Source: Hymenobacter sedentarius (lineage in GTDB: Bacteria > Bacteroidota > Bacteroidia > Cytophagales > Hymenobacteraceae). From it: DNA of 64,000 nt. The stretch's first letter is position 1, and every line of letters starts with the position of its first letter. Below the pieces are notes generated by a model. That model worked only from the letters and a program-made list of their open reading frames with translations, was not told where the DNA came from and ran no database searches. The stretch covers positions 806,001 to 870,000 of the forward strand of contig NZ_CP013909.1 of NCBI RefSeq assembly GCF_001507645.1, read 5' to 3'. Made by a program: the position numbers and the translations under genes. Below, piece after piece: positions 29,724 to 36,402 of the stretch.

Positions 29724-29800
29724 TTTGCGTTCCGCCTTATGGGCTTTTGGGAGCCATTTGGCTGCAGCCGTTTGTTGTTCTGGTTCTACCTTGCCTGCCA

Positions 29801-31123
29801 ATGCCCCCTGCCCCACCCCTTTCCGTTGCCGCCTCCGCCGACTTGCCCGGTGCTTCGGCGCCACTGCTCACCCGCGAGCAGGTGCTGCGGGCGTTGCGCC
29901 AGATAGCCCGCGAAGGCCGCCCACTGCCCTCCGGCACGGTGTACGAGCTGGTGTACCGGGGCCGGCGCTACCCGCCCCGCGCGGTGGCCGAGCTGGCGTA
30001 CCGACTGGCTACCGGCAACCCCACGGCCCACTGGCCCCGCCCGGCTGGCGCCGCCACCAACACCCTGCTCGAAGGCCTCGACTTTACCATCAGCACCAAG
30101 CGGCCCGTGCTCACGTCCGGCTCCACGCACGACGGCGACGAAACCGCCCGCCAGCAAGCCGAGGACCTGTACACCGGCATCTCCCGCGAATCATCGGAGC
30201 CCGCCAGCAGCCCAGCCAAAGTAGCCGAGCCGCCGGCCGCTTACGAGGCGCCACCGTATGACCGGCCCGATGCGCTGGCCGAGCTATTCATCTCCGAGGG
30301 CGCGCTGGATGCGGCCTTGGCCGGCCTGGCCCGCCGCCGCAACCTGCTGCTGCAAGGCCCGCCCGGCACCGGCAAAACGTTTCTGGCACGCCGGCTGGCG
30401 TGGTTGCTGTTGGGCGCCAAAGACGAAAGCCGCATTGAGTTGGTGCAGTTTCACCCCAGCTACGGCTACGAGGACTTTATGCTGGGCTTCCGGCCCGATG
30501 CGGACGGGCGCTTTCACTTGGTGCCCGGGGTGCTCCCGCTCCTATGCCAGCGCGCAGCCGCCGACCCCGACAAGCCGTATTTCCTTTTGATTGACGAGGT
30601 AAACCGTGGCAATGTGCCCCGCGTGTTTGGCGAATTGCTCCTGCTGCTGGAAGCCGACAAGCGCGGCCCCGCCCACGCCCTGCGCCTGCCCTACGCGCCG
30701 CCCGACGCGCCCCGCTTCTTCGTGCCCGAAAATCTGTACGTCATCGGCACCCTCAACCTAGCCGACCGCTCGCTGAGCCCGCTCGACTACGCGCTGCGCC
30801 GGCGCTTTGCCTTCGTGGAGCTGGGGCCGCAGTTTGGCGCGCCGCTGCAGGAGTTTCTCGCGGCCCGGCAAGTACCCGGCGCCATCATCGAGCAGCTGTG
30901 CACCCGCATGGCCGCCCTCAACCAAACCATTGCCGACGACCCCGAGCTGGGCCCTGATTTCGTCATTGGCCACAGCTATTTCTGCCAGCCCCCACCCCAG
31001 CCAGAACAAGCCGCCGAGTGGCTACGGCTGATTATTGAGCAGGAAATTGGGCCACTGCTGGCCGATTATTGGCGGGAGCAGCCGGCTACGGCGGCGGCCC
31101 AGCTGCGCAAGCTGCTGGTTTAG
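29801..31123 (+). CDS. mcrB: McrB-type AAA+ GTPase of a modification-dependent restriction system
   Basis: About 440 residues from the ATG at 29801; an in-frame ATG at 29747 adds a hydrophobic stretch not expected in McrB. The N-terminal region (REQVLRALRQIAREGR, ELVYRGRRYPPRAV) resembles the ScoMcrA-type head domain that reads modified DNA. The AAA+ core has Walker A GPPGTGKT at 186-193, QFHPSYGYEDFMLGF, the Walker B LIDEVNRGNVP, and GTLNLADRS where McrB proteins usually read MNTADRS. The GTPase drives the McrC nuclease. It is separated from mcrC by an antisense barrel gene and shares 4 nt with that gene's full-length 3' end. Confidence 0.87.
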   Translation: MPPAPPLSVAASADLPGASAPLLTREQVLRALRQIAREGRPLPSGTVYELVYRGRRYPPRAVAELAYRLATGNPTAHWPRPAGAATNTLLEGLDFTISTKRPVLTSGSTHDGDETARQQAEDLYTGISRESSEPASSPAKVAEPPAAYEAPPYDRPDALAELFISEGALDAALAGLARRRNLLLQGPPGTGKTFLARRLAWLLLGAKDESRIELVQFHPSYGYEDFMLGFRPDADGRFHLVPGVLPLLCQRAAADPDKPYFLLIDEVNRGNVPRVFGELLLLLEADKRGPAHALRLPYAPPDAPRFFVPENLYVIGTLNLADRSLSPLDYALRRRFAFVELGPQFGAPLQEFLAARQVPGAIIEQLCTRMAALNQTIADDPELGPDFVIGHSYFCQPPPQPEQAAEWLRLIIEQEIGPLLADYWREQPATAAAQLRKLLV

Positions 31124-31224
31124 AAGGATACGGTGGCTTGCAGCCGCATCGCCGCCGAGTGTTCCGTAGTCCGCTGGCTCGACGTCGCGGTAGTGCCCGT
31201 GCGGTTATCGACGATTGAGCTGGA
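31120..31224 (-). pseudogene. In-frame 3' continuation of the truncated barrel gene
   Basis: Directly after the TAA at 31225-31227 the same minus-strand frame stays open for 34 codons and ends at TAA 31120-31122. The last residues (AAMRLQATVSF) form an alternating strand ending in Phe, the typical C-terminal signal of outer-membrane beta-barrels. The stop lies in a 9-bp direct repeat TCCAGCTAA/TCCAGCTCA, so a TCA to TAA change explains it. Confidence 0.65.
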
Positions 31225-31770
31225 TTAGCTGGATTTTTGGCCCACAAAGCCTTCATAATACACCTCGGGCCCGAAGAAAAGCCGGGAGAAGATGCGAAAG
31301 CGCGCCCCCACACCGCCCATGCCTCCGATGGCGCGGGTCGTTGCAGTAAAGGTGTTATCCAGGCACCCGCAAAAGCCGCCCGTAAAGCGTCCAGCGGCAC
31401 CCGTATTGCGGTAGGCCACGTCCAGAAACGGATAGAGCCACGGCGTATTCGGCAACACGATGTATTGGGCACCGGCGCGCAGGGTAACCCTTCGGTAGCT
31501 GGTTTCTCCGGTTACGCAGTCGGCACAATTCCCGATTTCGGGCAGATTGGTGCGGTGGCTGTAAGCCAGGCCGGCGCGCACCCCCAGCCGCTGGGGCATG
31601 TAGCGCAAGACCACGCCTGAAAACGCCTGAAACCGGGGGTAGGTTGGCGAGGAAATGGCTGCGTAGCGCGCACCCTCCAGCCCAACTTCGGTCGGGTGCA
31701 GCCGCGGCGCTTGGGCATTGGCCCCGAGCACGGACCCCAGCAGCATTGCCCGCAGTAGTATTTTTTTCAT
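31225..31770 (-). CDS. Outer-membrane beta-barrel protein, truncated by an in-frame stop
   Basis: A 181-residue product as it stands. The start at ATG 31770 gives a signal peptide (MLLGSVLGANAQA). The mature part has amphipathic strands (GVVLRYMPQRLGVRAGLAYS, RRVTLRAGAQYIVL, ARFRIFSRLFFGPEVYYEG) like porin-type OmpW/OmpA barrels. It ends FVGQKSS without the C-terminal Phe strand, which lies in frame beyond the stop. An earlier in-frame start at 31917 is rejected because it precedes the signal. It lies antisense between mcrB and mcrC. Confidence 0.7.
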   Translation of the reverse strand: MKKILLRAMLLGSVLGANAQAPRLHPTEVGLEGARYAAISSPTYPRFQAFSGVVLRYMPQRLGVRAGLAYSHRTNLPEIGNCADCVTGETSYRRVTLRAGAQYIVLPNTPWLYPFLDVAYRNTGAAGRFTGGFCGCLDNTFTATTRAIGGMGGVGARFRIFSRLFFGPEVYYEGFVGQKSS

Positions 31771-31939
31771 TTTACAAGGATAAGCGAGTGAAAAGCATTG
31801 GTAAAAGACGCTAACGCGATGACCGGCGGCGCCCAGTCCGGGTTGCGTGGCGGCCCACCCAGCCGCAAACTTGGCCCAGAAACCAACGCCCCGAGCCCCT
31901 GCGCAGTAGATCAGCAAAAAACCGGACCTTTATTTCTGC

Positions 31940-32977
31940 GTGATACCACTCCCCACCCTTTACTATTTTCTGTGCTACGCCTGGAACCGACTGCCCGAGC
32001 CCGCCGTGCTGCAGGCCAGCGAAGCAGCTCAATTTCACCGGCCGCTTGGGTTGCTGGCCCAAGTGCTGTTGCACGGCACGCGGCGCTTGCTCCGAAATGG
32101 CCTTCCGCGCACTTTTCAGCCCCAGGAAGCCGAGCTAACCAGCTTGCGGGGCCGAATTGAGCTAGCCCCTAGCCTGGGCCGGGGTCTGCTGGAGCGGGGC
32201 CGCGCCATCTGCACCTTCGACGAACTAAGTCCCGACTCGCCCCTGCACCGCCTGCTGGCCCAGACGCTGGGCGCCTTAGCCAGTGCCGCCGACTTGCCCT
32301 TGACCCTGCGGCGCGAGGTGAGCCAAGTCCGTCAGCGGTTTCCGGCGTCGTTCACTGCAGCCCCGACGGTGCCGCCCACTACCGCCACCTTCCGGGAGCT
32401 GCGGCGGCAGCGGCTGGGTAGTCAGGCGGCCTTTCTGCTGCACGTATGCGAGCTAGTGTGGCAAACGGCCCTGCCCGAGCCCACCGCCCGCGGCCGAAAC
32501 CGCTTCAGCGACTTCCGGCGCGACGAAGCCCTGATGGCGCGCCTGTTTGAGCAGTTTACCCGCAATTTCTTCCGCCGCGAGCAGCGCCGCTACCGCGTGT
32601 ATGCCGAAACCATTGCCTGGCAGGCCGCGGGGCAGTCCGAAGACCTGGCCTTGTTGCCCACGATGCTAACGGATACTACCCTGGAGGCGCCCGACCGCAA
32701 AATAATCCTCGACACCAAGTACTACGCCGCGGCCCTGCGCTCGCGCTACGACCGACAGCGCCTCATTGCGCCACACCTCTACCAGCTCTATGCCTACCTC
32801 CAGAACCAGCGGCCCGCCCCCGGCCAGGCCTTGGAAGGGATTCTGCTGTACCCCGCGGCTACTCAGGCCGTTGACCTGCGCTACACCTTGGGCGGGCACC
32901 CGGTGCGCGTTGTCACCCTCAACCTGCACCAGCCTTGGGATGGTATTGCGGCCGATTTATTGAGCTTGATTGCCTGA
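31940..32977 (+). CDS. mcrC: McrC-type nuclease subunit
   Basis: A 345-residue protein with a GTG start. McrC subunits supply the nuclease that cuts modified DNA when assembled with McrB. The N-terminal part (PTLYYFLCYAWNRL) matches McrC-like starts. The C-terminal PD-(D/E)xK core is LLPTMLTDTTLE followed by IILDTKYY with D-T-K at about 257-259. It does not overlap mcrB; the barrel gene and a 169-bp leader lie between. No partner methyltransferase is present, as expected for a modification-dependent system. Confidence 0.85.
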   Translation: MIPLPTLYYFLCYAWNRLPEPAVLQASEAAQFHRPLGLLAQVLLHGTRRLLRNGLPRTFQPQEAELTSLRGRIELAPSLGRGLLERGRAICTFDELSPDSPLHRLLAQTLGALASAADLPLTLRREVSQVRQRFPASFTAAPTVPPTTATFRELRRQRLGSQAAFLLHVCELVWQTALPEPTARGRNRFSDFRRDEALMARLFEQFTRNFFRREQRRYRVYAETIAWQAAGQSEDLALLPTMLTDTTLEAPDRKIILDTKYYAAALRSRYDRQRLIAPHLYQLYAYLQNQRPAPGQALEGILLYPAATQAVDLRYTLGGHPVRVVTLNLHQPWDGIAADLLSLIA

Positions 32978-33086: not shown

Positions 33087-33350
33087 TTACTTCTTAACCT
33101 CTTCGGTCGTGGTGGTGGTGGTACCGGTGGTGGTGCCAGCAGCAGGAGCAGCAGCGTCCGTAGCAGGAGCGGTGGTTGCGTCAGCAGCAGGAGCAGTGGT
33201 AGCAGTGCTGTCGGTGGTGGTAGAGGTCGAGGTCTCGGTGGTAGCAGCAGGAGTCTCAACGGTGGTCGACTCGGTCGACTTCGACTCGCACGAAGACAGA
33301 CCAGCGGTCAGGGCCAGGCCCAGGGCAGCAACTTTGAACAGGTTGTTCAT
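33087..33350 (-). CDS. Small Thr/Ala-rich lipoprotein
   Basis: An 87-residue protein. MNNLFKVAALGLALTAGLSSC is a signal peptide with lipobox. The mature 65 residues are almost only Thr, Ala, Ser, Glu and Asp (TTTTTTEEVKK at the end), a low-complexity, probably disordered tail. Such small lipoproteins are common in Bacteroidota and may coat the outer membrane; no function is known. The opposite strand shows a long Ser/Arg frame that is only a shadow of this composition. Confidence 0.78.
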   Translation of the reverse strand: MNNLFKVAALGLALTAGLSSCESKSTESTTVETPAATTETSTSTTTDSTATTAPAADATTAPATDAAAPAAGTTTGTTTTTTEEVKK

Positions 33351-33486
33351 TTTGAAGGTAATTTTGAAAATGGGTTAACATAAAAGACGCCCTTTATCCC
33401 GGCTTACTGGAAAGGTAACCCGGCCTAGAAAAATATTTTTTCGGCGGGTTACTTGTGCCCCGTATTTGTATTAACTACCAAAGTGA

Positions 33487-34095
33487 ATGAGCAGGGGTAA
33501 TTCAACTTCCTCTTCGTTAACTCCTACCGACGACGCGCTGATTGCCGCCATTCGTGACGGCGATGAGCGGGCGCTGGCCCACCTCTACCGGTTGCACTGG
33601 CCCATGGTATCGCACTTCGTGCTGCAAAACAGCGGCTCCGAAGACGACGCCCAGGACGTGTACCAGGAAGGCGTGATGGTGTTTTATGAAAAAGTACGCG
33701 ATGGCTCGCTTGAGCTGAGCTGTCAGATTAAAACCTACCTCTACGCCGTGTGCCGCCGCCTGTGGCTCAAGCGCCTGACCAGCAAAAGCCGCTTTGGCGT
33801 GCGCTTGCTCGACGATGAGGAGCACGGTCCCTACCTGAACACAGGAGCCGAAGAAGACTTGCTTGCTGCCGAGGAACAGGACCGCCGCTTCACCACCATG
33901 AGCGAGGCCCTCAACCACCTCGGCGAGCCCTGCCGCTCGCTTCTGGAAGGCTTCTATCTGCTTGACAAATCGATGCAGGACTTAACTGCAGAGTTTGGCT
34001 ACACCAATGCCGACAATGCTAAGAATCAAAAGTATAAGTGCCTGGTGCGCTTGAAAAAGTTATTCTTTACCCATTATAAAGAAGAGCCTATCTGA
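33487..34095 (+). CDS. ECF-type sigma-70 family RNA polymerase sigma factor
   Basis: A 202-residue factor. Region 2 is at the N-terminus (ALAHLYRLHWPMVSHFVLQNSGSEDDAQDVYQEGVMVFYEKV) and region 4 at the C-terminus (LLEGFYLLDKSMQDLTAEFGYTNADNAKNQKYKCLVRLKKLF), separated by a short acidic linker. The 78-bp downstream protein has an anti-sigma-like cytoplasmic head and an external protease, so the pair probably forms a membrane-stress regulatory unit. Which stimulus it serves is unknown. Confidence 0.92.
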   Translation: MSRGNSTSSSLTPTDDALIAAIRDGDERALAHLYRLHWPMVSHFVLQNSGSEDDAQDVYQEGVMVFYEKVRDGSLELSCQIKTYLYAVCRRLWLKRLTSKSRFGVRLLDDEEHGPYLNTGAEEDLLAAEEQDRRFTTMSEALNHLGEPCRSLLEGFYLLDKSMQDLTAEFGYTNADNAKNQKYKCLVRLKKLFFTHYKEEPI

Positions 34096-34173
34096 TATCC
34101 ATTAGCTGCGAGCCCGTTGCCCGCAGAACCCCCGTTGCTTACCGCCGCCGGCCCCGCGCCGGCAGCTTTTCCC

Positions 34174-35358
34174 ATGATGACTGAAGCAGACTACTACGCC
34201 TTATTTGAAGCCTACGCCGATGGCGAGCTGGCCGGGCCCGCCCGTGCCAATCTCGAAGCGCGGCTGGCGGCCGACCCTTCCCTGGCGTTGCGCTACGCTG
34301 ACTTCACGGAAATGACCGGCACCCTGCGGGCCTACCGCCAGCGCCAAAACGTGCGCCAGCAGCTGCAGGGCATCCACGCCGCTATGCTGGCGGCCGAAAC
34401 GCCGGAAGAAATTACCACGACTAAAACCAATGAGCCGGCTTCGCCGCTAACCCACTCGGTGAACCCGATGCTGCGCATCTCGCGCACCGAGCGGCGGCTG
34501 CGCGACTTCTGGAGCGGGCACCGCGCCACGGTGGGCGTCGCGGCTTCGGTGGCCATCCTGGCCGTGTTCAGCACGTTGCTGGGCCTGGAGTGGTGGCGGG
34601 CCGCCAAAACGGCCCCTTCGCTGTACGGCTACACGGTGCTGCGCCGCGAAGTAGAGCGCATCAAAAAGAGCCAGAAAGACCTGACGCTGACCCTGAACCA
34701 GTTCGGCAAGTCGGGCATCAGCGCCCCCGCCCCGAAGGAAAGTAAGTTCAGCGGCACGGGCTTTGCCCTCACCTCCGAAGGCTACCTGGTTACCAGCTTC
34801 CACGTCATTCAAGGGGCTGATTCGCTGCTGGTAGAGGGCCGCGACCGGCAGCGCTACCACGCCGAGCCCGTGTATTCCGACGTGAAACACGACCTGGCCA
34901 TTCTGCGCATTACCGACAAGAAATTCACTGGCTTCGGCCGCCTGCCCTACGCCATCAAGTCGGGCCAGGCCGATTTGGGCGAGCGGGTGTTCACCCTGGG
35001 CTACCCCCGCGAAGACGTGGTGTACGGCGAAGGGGCCCTGAGTGCCCGCTCGGGCTTTGAGGGCGACACTGCGTTTTACCAAGTGAGCATTCCGGTGAAC
35101 CCCGGCAACTCGGGCGGCCCGCTGCTCGACGAGCGCGGCAACCTGATTGGGGTGGTAAGCGGCCGCCAGAACGACGCCCAGAGCGCCGCCTTTGCAACTA
35201 AGTCCTCTTACCTGGTGCGCTTGGTCGACTCCCTGGATGCTGCCAAGCCGGCCGTCGCTTTTCACCTGCCGCATTTCGGCCAGTTGGCTGGCACGGGGCG
35301 CCCCCATCAGGTGAAAAAGCTGCAGGACTACGTGTTTGTGGTGAAGGTTTTCGAATAG
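34174..35358 (+). CDS. Anti-sigma-like membrane protein fused to trypsin-like protease
   Basis: A 394-residue protein; the ATG at 34174 is preferred to a TTG 19 codons earlier. The cytoplasmic head (TEADYYALFEAYADGELAGPARANLEARLAADP) has the helical pattern of zinc-less anti-sigma factors. One membrane helix lies at about 117-141 (GVAASVAILAVFSTLLGLEWW). The periplasmic domain is a trypsin/HtrA-like protease with His210 (TSFHVI), Asp240 (KHDLAIL) and Ser313 (PGNSGGP). No PDZ domain follows. Because it directly follows an ECF sigma gene, it may hold the sigma factor and release it on an extracytoplasmic signal. Confidence 0.85.
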   Translation: MMTEADYYALFEAYADGELAGPARANLEARLAADPSLALRYADFTEMTGTLRAYRQRQNVRQQLQGIHAAMLAAETPEEITTTKTNEPASPLTHSVNPMLRISRTERRLRDFWSGHRATVGVAASVAILAVFSTLLGLEWWRAAKTAPSLYGYTVLRREVERIKKSQKDLTLTLNQFGKSGISAPAPKESKFSGTGFALTSEGYLVTSFHVIQGADSLLVEGRDRQRYHAEPVYSDVKHDLAILRITDKKFTGFGRLPYAIKSGQADLGERVFTLGYPREDVVYGEGALSARSGFEGDTAFYQVSIPVNPGNSGGPLLDERGNLIGVVSGRQNDAQSAAFATKSSYLVRLVDSLDAAKPAVAFHLPHFGQLAGTGRPHQVKKLQDYVFVVKVFE

Positions 35359-35437: not shown

Positions 35438-35622
35438 GCTTCTTTGGCTTTTCCTGGGTAGCCATGCGGCTGTGCTTAGAAAGGGACATAAGCGCCTCAT
35501 TTCGCTGCCTGAAACCGAAAATAGCCGCTTTCTCAAAAACCTTGCACCTCCGAAACGAGTACTTAGGCCTAGGCCGACAGCGCCGATATTCCCTTCTTTT
35601 GCATTCCTTAATTCCGCTCTCC

Positions 35623-36402
35623 GTGGCTCAAAATCAACAAACCCCACCTACCAGCAACGACGTTGCCGGCTCGGCTATTTTCAAGAAGTTTCTGCGCACC
35701 GCCGAGGGCTACGTTCGGCAGCCCACCCGCATGAAGCAGCTGCTGACGGATGCCTACAAGAAAGCCAGCGAAAAGAACGAAGTGGGCACCTTGGCCCACG
35801 AAGCCTGGGAAACACTCCAGACCATGTTCCGGCTCATTAAAGCGTCGATGTCGGGCGAGTACACGGGTGTACCCGGTACCACCGTGGCCGCGGCCGTGGC
35901 GGTGCTCATCTACTTTCTGAGTCCCATTGACCTGATTCCGGATTTTATTCCGGTGCTGGGCCTGCTCGACGACGTAGCCTTAGTGGCGTGGTTCTCGACC
36001 ACCCTCAAGCACGAGCTCGACAAGTTTCACGAATGGGAAACCACGCGCCCGGCTCTAGCCGTCAATGCCAATGTGGACACCAAAAGCCACAAAGCCGCCG
36101 CCGAGCAGGCCGCAACCGCCATGAGTGCCGGCCCGGCTTCGCCCCACGCCCCCGAGCGCCCGCAGCCCGCGCGGGAGTCGGCCAAGCAGCACGGCACCGT
36201 CGACCTGCCCTCCACGCCTTCGCACTCCAACACCGACTCGGGGCTGGGCACGCCCGAAAGCAGCAGCCCGCGCCCGGTGCACGAGGCCGGCCCCGACGTA
36301 CAGCCCACCGGCCCCACCAGCGGCGCCACCGTGCGCACCTGGGAAGGCAGCCGCAACAGCACCGACCCCGGCAACCTCGACTCCGGCGGCAACGTGCGCT
36401 AA
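35623..36402 (+). CDS. YkvA-family (DUF1232) protein with long disordered tail
   Basis: A 259-residue protein when started at the GTG at 35623; the 53 residues upstream in frame look non-coding. Residues about 70-140 contain the DUF1232 core (YFLSPIDLIPDFIPVLGLLDDVALVAW), a conserved membrane-associated hairpin of unknown function. The C-terminal 110 residues are Pro/Ser/Ala-rich and likely disordered. The family has been linked to phospholipid membranes only loosely, so no role is assigned. Confidence 0.78.
   Translation: MAQNQQTPPTSNDVAGSAIFKKFLRTAEGYVRQPTRMKQLLTDAYKKASEKNEVGTLAHEAWETLQTMFRLIKASMSGEYTGVPGTTVAAAVAVLIYFLSPIDLIPDFIPVLGLLDDVALVAWFSTTLKHELDKFHEWETTRPALAVNANVDTKSHKAAAEQAATAMSAGPASPHAPERPQPARESAKQHGTVDLPSTPSHSNTDSGLGTPESSSPRPVHEAGPDVQPTGPTSGATVRTWEGSRNSTDPGNLDSGGNVR

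Follow-up and report, generated by a model that had tools for sequence, protein, structure and literature searches.

In Proteobacteria, the RseA/DegS/RseP pathway of sigmaE divides inhibition and the site-1 cut between two proteins, the second of which, DegS, carries a PDZ sensor. Here we describe a locus of Hymenobacter sedentarius in which counterparts of these two proteins appear to be joined, with an extracytoplasmic function (ECF) sigma factor gene followed by a single gene for a protein composed of a putative anti-sigma head, a membrane helix and a periplasmic HtrA-like protease. The locus lies in a stretch of 64,000 nt (hereafter the window; contig NZ_CP013909.1, positions 806,001 to 870,000) from a genome consisting of a single contig of 4.87 Mb. 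It resembles the RseA/DegS/RseP system in its predicted parts, namely an ECF sigma factor, a membrane anti-sigma factor, an HtrA-type protease, a site-2 protease and an envelope output, and differs from it in that inhibitor and protease are on one chain, in which no PDZ domain was found.

Among other described systems, RsgI of Clostridium thermocellum is an anti-sigma factor that is first cut by its own periplasmic part, after which RseP and then an AAA+/ClpP protease act (excerpts of PMC12203970). The H. sedentarius protein likewise has a periplasmic part proposed to make the first cut; the domain in RsgI is autocleaving, whereas the trypsin-like enzyme found here may be capable of multiple turnover and of cleavage in trans. 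An unusual outer part on a Bacteroidota anti-sigma factor is also described for Dma, the partner of the ECF21 sigma factor Das in Bacteroides, which shares with the present protein an N-terminal anti-sigma domain, one membrane helix, a co-encoded sigma factor and a role in envelope regulation, here a predicted one (excerpts of PMC13088901). In Dma the C-terminal part is a beta-barrel attached through a disordered tether, in contrast to the trypsin-like protease of the present protein. More generally, class I anti-sigma domains are short, cytoplasmic, co-encoded with ECF sigma factors and fused to varied domains, with a membrane helix that is common and not required (excerpts of PMC7406223). 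A head encoded after an ECF sigma factor gene and joined to a swapped outer part corresponds to this usual build, although the window head falls below curated cut-offs, and no protease-fused group appears in the excerpts of PMC7406223, which comprise text and not the figure and table on fusions. The parts are known; what appears to be new, among the literature matches listed, is their union in one chain, its conservation across the class, the modularity of the head, and a promoter that is predicted to serve a lipoprotein regulon. None of these matches describes a trypsin-like or HtrA protease on the same chain as an anti-sigma factor, and an earlier mention in the main ECF re-classification paper is possible.

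The sigma–protease pair is conserved across the class Bacteroidia

Consistent with the preliminary description, made from the sequence alone, family matches and a structure model identify a sigma factor gene, a gap of 78 bp to the start codon of the partner, and a partner protein with an anti-sigma-like segment, one membrane helix and a trypsin-like domain. The sigma factor matches Sigma70_r2 in Pfam (E 4.5e-8, 33.2 bits, cut-off 24) and the sigma70-ECF model TIGR02937 in NCBIfam (E 1.3e-15, 57.4 bits, cut-off 42.9). Region 2 of its model has structural matches to SigW and SigE; region 4, which has no Pfam match at E ≤ 1, superposes on that of SigL (model residues 129–199 on 3hug_K, rmsd 2.0 Å over 70 residues, Z 8.4). 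For the partner, an alternative TTG start at 34117 was rejected, in favour of the ATG at 34174: the start closest to the conserved part is an ATG in 43/43 loci, and this ATG overlaps the sigma stop codon in L039 and L041.

All 37 same-genus genomes (its own included) encode a full-length relative of the partner, at identities of 63–87% (64% in Hymenobacter piscis), as do, at full or near-full length, six of the 22 genomes from elsewhere in the order. In all 43 loci of this first search, a sigma factor gene lies directly upstream on the same strand. A survey of 395 genomes of the class revealed matches at E ≤ 1e-40 in 79, of which 59 hold the headed protease. With 13 named loci added from the best 80 matches listed (Hymenobacter, Mucilaginibacter, Sphingobacterium, Pedobacter, Chitinophagales and others), 78 further loci were examined; 70 encode the headed protein and eight a protease without the head. 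A sigma factor gene lies directly upstream in 69 of the 70 headed loci, the exception (L234) being cut by a contig end, but beside none of the eight protease-only ones (L274–L281, from 30 protease-only places in the survey). These protease-only relatives share the protease and the C-terminal part, set in other, often longer architectures. Near-duplicate loci (L140/L229 and L241/L242) reduce the 112 sigma-paired loci to 110.

Searching the same 395 genomes from the sigma side gave a matching picture: 57 encode a top-scoring sigma factor (at least 229 bits; next match 214), and every one of them belongs to the set of 59 that hold the headed protease. The two remaining genomes are the contig-end case and G401, in which the adjacent sigma factor is divergent. 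In several families the two genes overlap. Absence of the pair from relatives, which the preliminary description had named as evidence against its proposal, is not what these loci show (43/43 and 69/70). The pair is ancient, and its conservation across the class indicates that it is not a chance association.

The head as a probable anti-sigma domain

The head very probably acts as the anti-sigma domain of the adjacent sigma factor, a label that derives from the genomic neighbourhood and from family matches, which are weak. It has the layout of class I anti-sigma domains, being an N-terminal helical domain co-encoded with an ECF sigma factor and placed on the cytoplasmic side by charge, as the N-terminal side of the membrane helix is Arg-rich and the positive-inside rule would leave it in the cytoplasm. 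The Hx3Cx2C zinc motif is missing from the window head because the head has no Cys. Within the membrane segment, A123 and A124 are invariant across 62 sequences.

A head profile was searched against the neighbourhoods of 13 sister-type sigma factors, part of the lower-scoring sigma matches, and of G401 (14 loci in all), and matched an open reading frame (ORF) adjoining the sigma gene in 12 of 14, including G401 (E between 1.6e-15 and 2e-7, compared with ~1 for the next best ORF and 0.15 for the top-scoring one among 540 shuffled sequences), with no such match at L358 and L360. At G401 the protein also matches the protease part at 1e-74. Downstream of 11 of the 13 sister sigma factors (L348–L357, L359), the same head is joined to different periplasmic parts, often low-complexity ones, and Pfam returned nothing informative for four of these partners. 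Because the same head bears a non-protease periplasmic part at these loci, it behaves as a modular anti-sigma domain, and the swapping points to a larger putative anti-sigma family of Bacteroidia.

Several observations count against this assignment. The NCBIfam anti-sigma family NF052375 matches 30 of 62 relatives at E ≤ 0.1 and only weakly at best (4.4e-7), and the window protein reaches E 6e-4 and 19.8 bits, where the curated cut-off is 100. For zf-HC2, 13 of 57 heads match at E ≤ 1 (best 9e-4), among 77 matched families that mostly hit one or two heads each. A profile search of the Protein Data Bank (PDB) with the head gave no anti-sigma factor among the best 60 of 158 matches, and the head is left uncovered in the best 50 PDB structure-match rows for a model of sigma factor plus head. 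Three headed proteins of one family (L237, L239 and L243) lack approximately the first 37 head residues and still adjoin a sigma gene, L237 and L239 also retaining the exact promoter motif described below. The family matches of the head, weak as they are, appear to point the same way, toward an anti-sigma domain.

Structure prediction of the head with the sigma factor was suggested in the preliminary description as a check. The two genes were modelled with AlphaFold2 as one chain, with the stop between them read as a residue (57 aligned rows, 21 paired). The model has a mean pLDDT of 85.6, with 95–97 in the head, and a pTM of 0.78, a whole-chain value that comes without inter-domain error values or a control chain. 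As 75 residues are below pLDDT 70, a pTM of this size suggests that the model gives the rest a defined placement. The confidence is high overall, but the placement of the sigma domains is unlike that in solved complexes and speaks against the assignment: regions 2 and 4 each match ECF sigma factors, and taken jointly they deviate from solved complexes by an rmsd of at least 8 Å (8 Å for BldN–RsbN). The modelled arrangement, if right, is thus not that of RseA.

The protease domain

The protease part matches Trypsin_2 in Pfam at residues 194–327 (E 1.1e-24), and its closest folds by Foldseek are Deg1, DegS-deltaPDZ, DegP and MucD, with a TMt of 0.77 and 2.2 Å over 170 columns for DegS-deltaPDZ (2r3u_C). 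A model of the full-length partner (pLDDT 88.7, pTM 0.57) has a beta-barrel protease at 192–343 and a chain end formed by a helix and a strand at 376–393. The triad numbering His210-Asp240-Ser313 of the preliminary description is correct, and H210, D240, S313 and G314 are kept in 113/113 headed proteins (N312 in 108/113). Together, these results support a sensor-side protease and an inhibitor-type head on one chain, in a pair conserved across the class.

No PDZ domain was matched in the partner by Pfam at E ≤ 1, and the model ends in the helix and strand noted above; the usual DegS route of sensing misfolded proteins is therefore missing, which counts against the mechanism proposed below. The layout is hence unlike that of DegS, with a head and no detectable PDZ domain, and the NCBIfam DegS model gives 60.5 bits against a cut-off of 422.95. 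Against Pfam, the periplasmic part gave peptidase-type matches only and no SEAL-type match, in a search that included no dedicated SEAL model. Elsewhere in the genome there are two HtrA-type matches, a 500-aa Do-type enzyme and a 319-aa protein without an evident signal peptide, neither of which resembles DegS (both judged by eye). Two M50 proteases are also encoded and could serve as site-2 proteases.

A promoter-like motif and a predicted lipoprotein regulon

Three features go beyond the preliminary description, namely a conserved promoter-like motif, a lipoprotein gene that is divergent from the sigma gene and preceded by a similar site, and a predicted lipoprotein regulon. The motif, GGGTTAC-N15-GTATTAA, is in all likelihood the promoter recognised by the adjacent sigma factor. 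In the form GGGTTAC-N15/16-G(T/C)ATTAA it precedes the sigma gene in 43/43 loci (34 exact with N15, seven exact with N16, two with one mismatch). Among the wider loci, scanned with approximate sigma starts, it occurs in 63 of 69 at up to 2 mismatches and a spacing of 14–16, compared to a mean of ~4.6 mismatches and minima of 2–4 in shuffles. An exact copy occurs in 33 of the 59 pair-bearing genomes vs 5 of 336 genomes that lack the pair (Fisher p ~1e-26), and in 24/59 vs 5/336 when the sigma factor's own promoter is excluded (p ~1e-17), both values uncorrected for genome kinship.

Before the window sigma gene, GGTAACCC...GGGTTACC forms an inverted repeat, and a reverse-strand copy of the motif (up to 3 mismatches) faces the divergent gene in 37/37 same-genus loci and 2/6 others. 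An operator for a dimer was considered and rejected, as the reverse copy is present in only two of six non-genus loci and the lipoprotein sites elsewhere are unidirectional. Since sites are unidirectional in other families, the inverted repeat looks more like two back-to-back -35 elements.

The motif quite likely defines a regulon dominated by small envelope lipoproteins. Lipoproteins were called with our own lipobox rule, not a trained predictor, and orthologous sites of different species were counted separately. Fifteen same-genus genomes contain 70 sites at up to one mismatch vs 23 for the pattern read backwards. The downstream gene was examined for 62 of them, comprising 10 of the sigma factor's own sites and 52 non-sigma sites; the remaining eight are all at the sigma locus of four genomes. 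Predicted lipoprotein genes follow 36 of the 52 non-sigma sites and none of the 23 control sites. Exact non-sigma sites precede lipoprotein genes in 20 of 21 cases, and the like-for-like comparison at one mismatch is 16/31 vs 0/23, all controls being one-mismatch sites. The window genome has the exact motif once, and its sites with one or two mismatches precede three small lipoprotein genes and a gene for a TPR-type envelope protein (the latter by eye).

Further evidence comes from other families, 16 genomes of which (all but one with the pair) contain 35 exact sites vs one control site. Of the 34 examined, 23 are non-sigma sites and 17 of these have a lipoprotein gene downstream; several genomes have runs of two or three such genes beside the sigma gene. 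More specifically, L290, L292, L300 and L309 each have two or three adjacent small low-complexity lipoprotein genes beside the sigma gene, every one with its own copy of the motif; most of the encoded proteins begin MKNSFK and have the lipobox AAC. Divergent lipoprotein genes occur in relatives of the window locus too. Larger predicted targets are DUF4349 lipoproteins, encoded downstream of the motif in L112 and L293, which belong to two distant families.

The motif evidence is incomplete in several respects that speak against such a regulon. It is absent at 6/69 wider sigma loci, 26 of 59 pair-bearing genomes have no exact copy, and at up to 2 mismatches the window genome has 15 sites, not far above the nine of the reversed control. 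Moreover, 16/52 same-genus and 6/23 other-family non-sigma sites are not before a predicted lipoprotein gene.

Proposed mechanism and alternatives

Comparison of genomes provides the pair, the retained triad, the modular head, the motif before lipoprotein genes and candidate site-2-type proteases. From these we infer that the head inhibits the sigma factor, that the sigma factor recognises the motif, and that an envelope signal sets off successive cleavage steps. The head would hold the adjacent ECF sigma factor at the membrane, and the periplasmic HtrA-like protease would be both sensor and first ('site-1') protease. On an envelope signal it would cut the linker next to the membrane, either in its own chain or in an adjacent subunit of an oligomer, the variable loop after the helix at residues 150–179 being the candidate cleavage region. 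A site-2 protease of the RseP type would then cut the membrane helix, and the freed sigma factor would transcribe from GGGTTAC-N15-GTATTAA promoters, from which both its own operon and several small envelope lipoprotein genes would be expressed.

That the protein is a one-chain signalling device, with inhibitor head, sensor and the site-1 protease of its own release pathway, is in our judgement evenly balanced, as is the step on which it turns, that the protease itself starts sigma release. The complete proposal, a class-wide polypeptide uniting inhibitor, sensor and site-1 protease, able to activate in trans within an oligomer and controlling a dedicated regulon of small envelope lipoproteins through a class-conserved promoter, is offered tentatively, at somewhat less than even chances. 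The lack of a protease match in 11/11 head-bearing sister partners argues against self-release.

HtrA-type enzymes commonly act on misfolded proteins, and the protease may accordingly serve mainly for clean-up and spare its own chain. The head would then still be an anti-sigma domain, and binding of damaged or mislocalised proteins would alter the oligomer and expose the linker to another protease. The separate 500-aa Do-type enzyme could make this cut, and sister partners without a protease imply that the anti-sigma logic needs none. However, clean-up would not require fusion to an anti-sigma domain, and the triad is kept in every headed copy, although this alone does not separate self-cutting from clean-up. 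We consider this alternative less likely than not, though more probable than the two that follow.

More improbable is a feedback loop between protease and regulon, in which the small lipoproteins under the control of the system would activate the protease or be its substrates, and the system would gauge lipoprotein traffic rather than general stress. Most predicted targets are indeed small lipoproteins, often encoded beside the sigma gene, and outer-membrane damage has been tied to a rise in outer-membrane lipoproteins in Flavobacterium, which also fits an envelope signal (excerpts of PMC12045153), but no observation ties the protease physically to lipoproteins. It is very improbable that the head does not bind the adjacent sigma factor and that the operon conserves two unrelated envelope functions: the family matches of the head are weak and no solved complex superposes well on both modelled sigma domains, but the same head follows sister sigma factors with unrelated periplasmic parts, 8/8 examined protease-only relatives have no sigma factor beside them, and the two genes overlap in several families.

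Features of the locus and its biological meaning

Table 1 Coordinates of the sigma–protease locus and its predicted features within the window
Feature	Position	Strand	Basis
Predicted lipoprotein, 87 aa, Thr/Ala-rich, lipobox LSSC; predicted regulon member	33087..33350	-	divergent from sigma gene
Divergent promoter-like site GGGTTAC-N15-GGATAAA before lipoprotein gene	33393..33421	-	2 mismatches
Promoter-like site GGGTTAC-N15-GTATTAA before sigma gene	33446..33474	+	exact match
ECF sigma factor gene, 202 aa	33487..34095	+	TIGR02937, Sigma70_r2, structural matches of regions 2 and 4
Partner gene, 394 aa: anti-sigma-type head, membrane helix, HtrA-like protease	34174..35358	+	start ATG 34174
Cytoplasmic head, residues 1–75	34174..34398	+	helices 4–15, 21–33 and 35–75 in model; head profile
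Membrane-spanning segment, ~residues 119–141	34528..34596	+	sequence; model helix 104–146; Arg-rich N-terminal (cytoplasmic) side
Periplasmic helix, possibly coiled coil, residues 150–179, then variable loop	34621..34710	+	model
Trypsin/HtrA-like protease domain, ~residues 190–345	34741..35208	+	Pfam, triad conservation, fold match
His210 codon	34801-34803	+	
Asp240 codon	34891-34893	+	
Ser313 codon	35110-35112	+	
Conserved C-terminal helix and strand (VFVVKVF), residues 376–393	35299..35352	+	model

On the same strand, the window also encodes a McrB-like AAA+ protein followed by a McrC-like one (29747-32977; a restriction system), and the gene after the pair (35464-36402) is for a membrane protein that resembles YkvA/DUF1232 and has a tail of low complexity, all assigned by eye.

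Only 6% of Bacteroidota ECF sigma factors have a class I anti-sigma factor nearby (excerpts of PMC7406223). The pair constitutes a defined, testable system with a predicted sigma factor, inhibitor, protease, promoter sequence and target genes. It suggests that many Bacteroidia have a compact alarm system, in which the inhibitor of a stress switch bears its own protease on the outer side. If the protease does start the release of its own sigma factor, two steps of the DegS–RseA pathway would be merged in one chain, and the locus would illustrate how a site-1 protease can originate by fusion.
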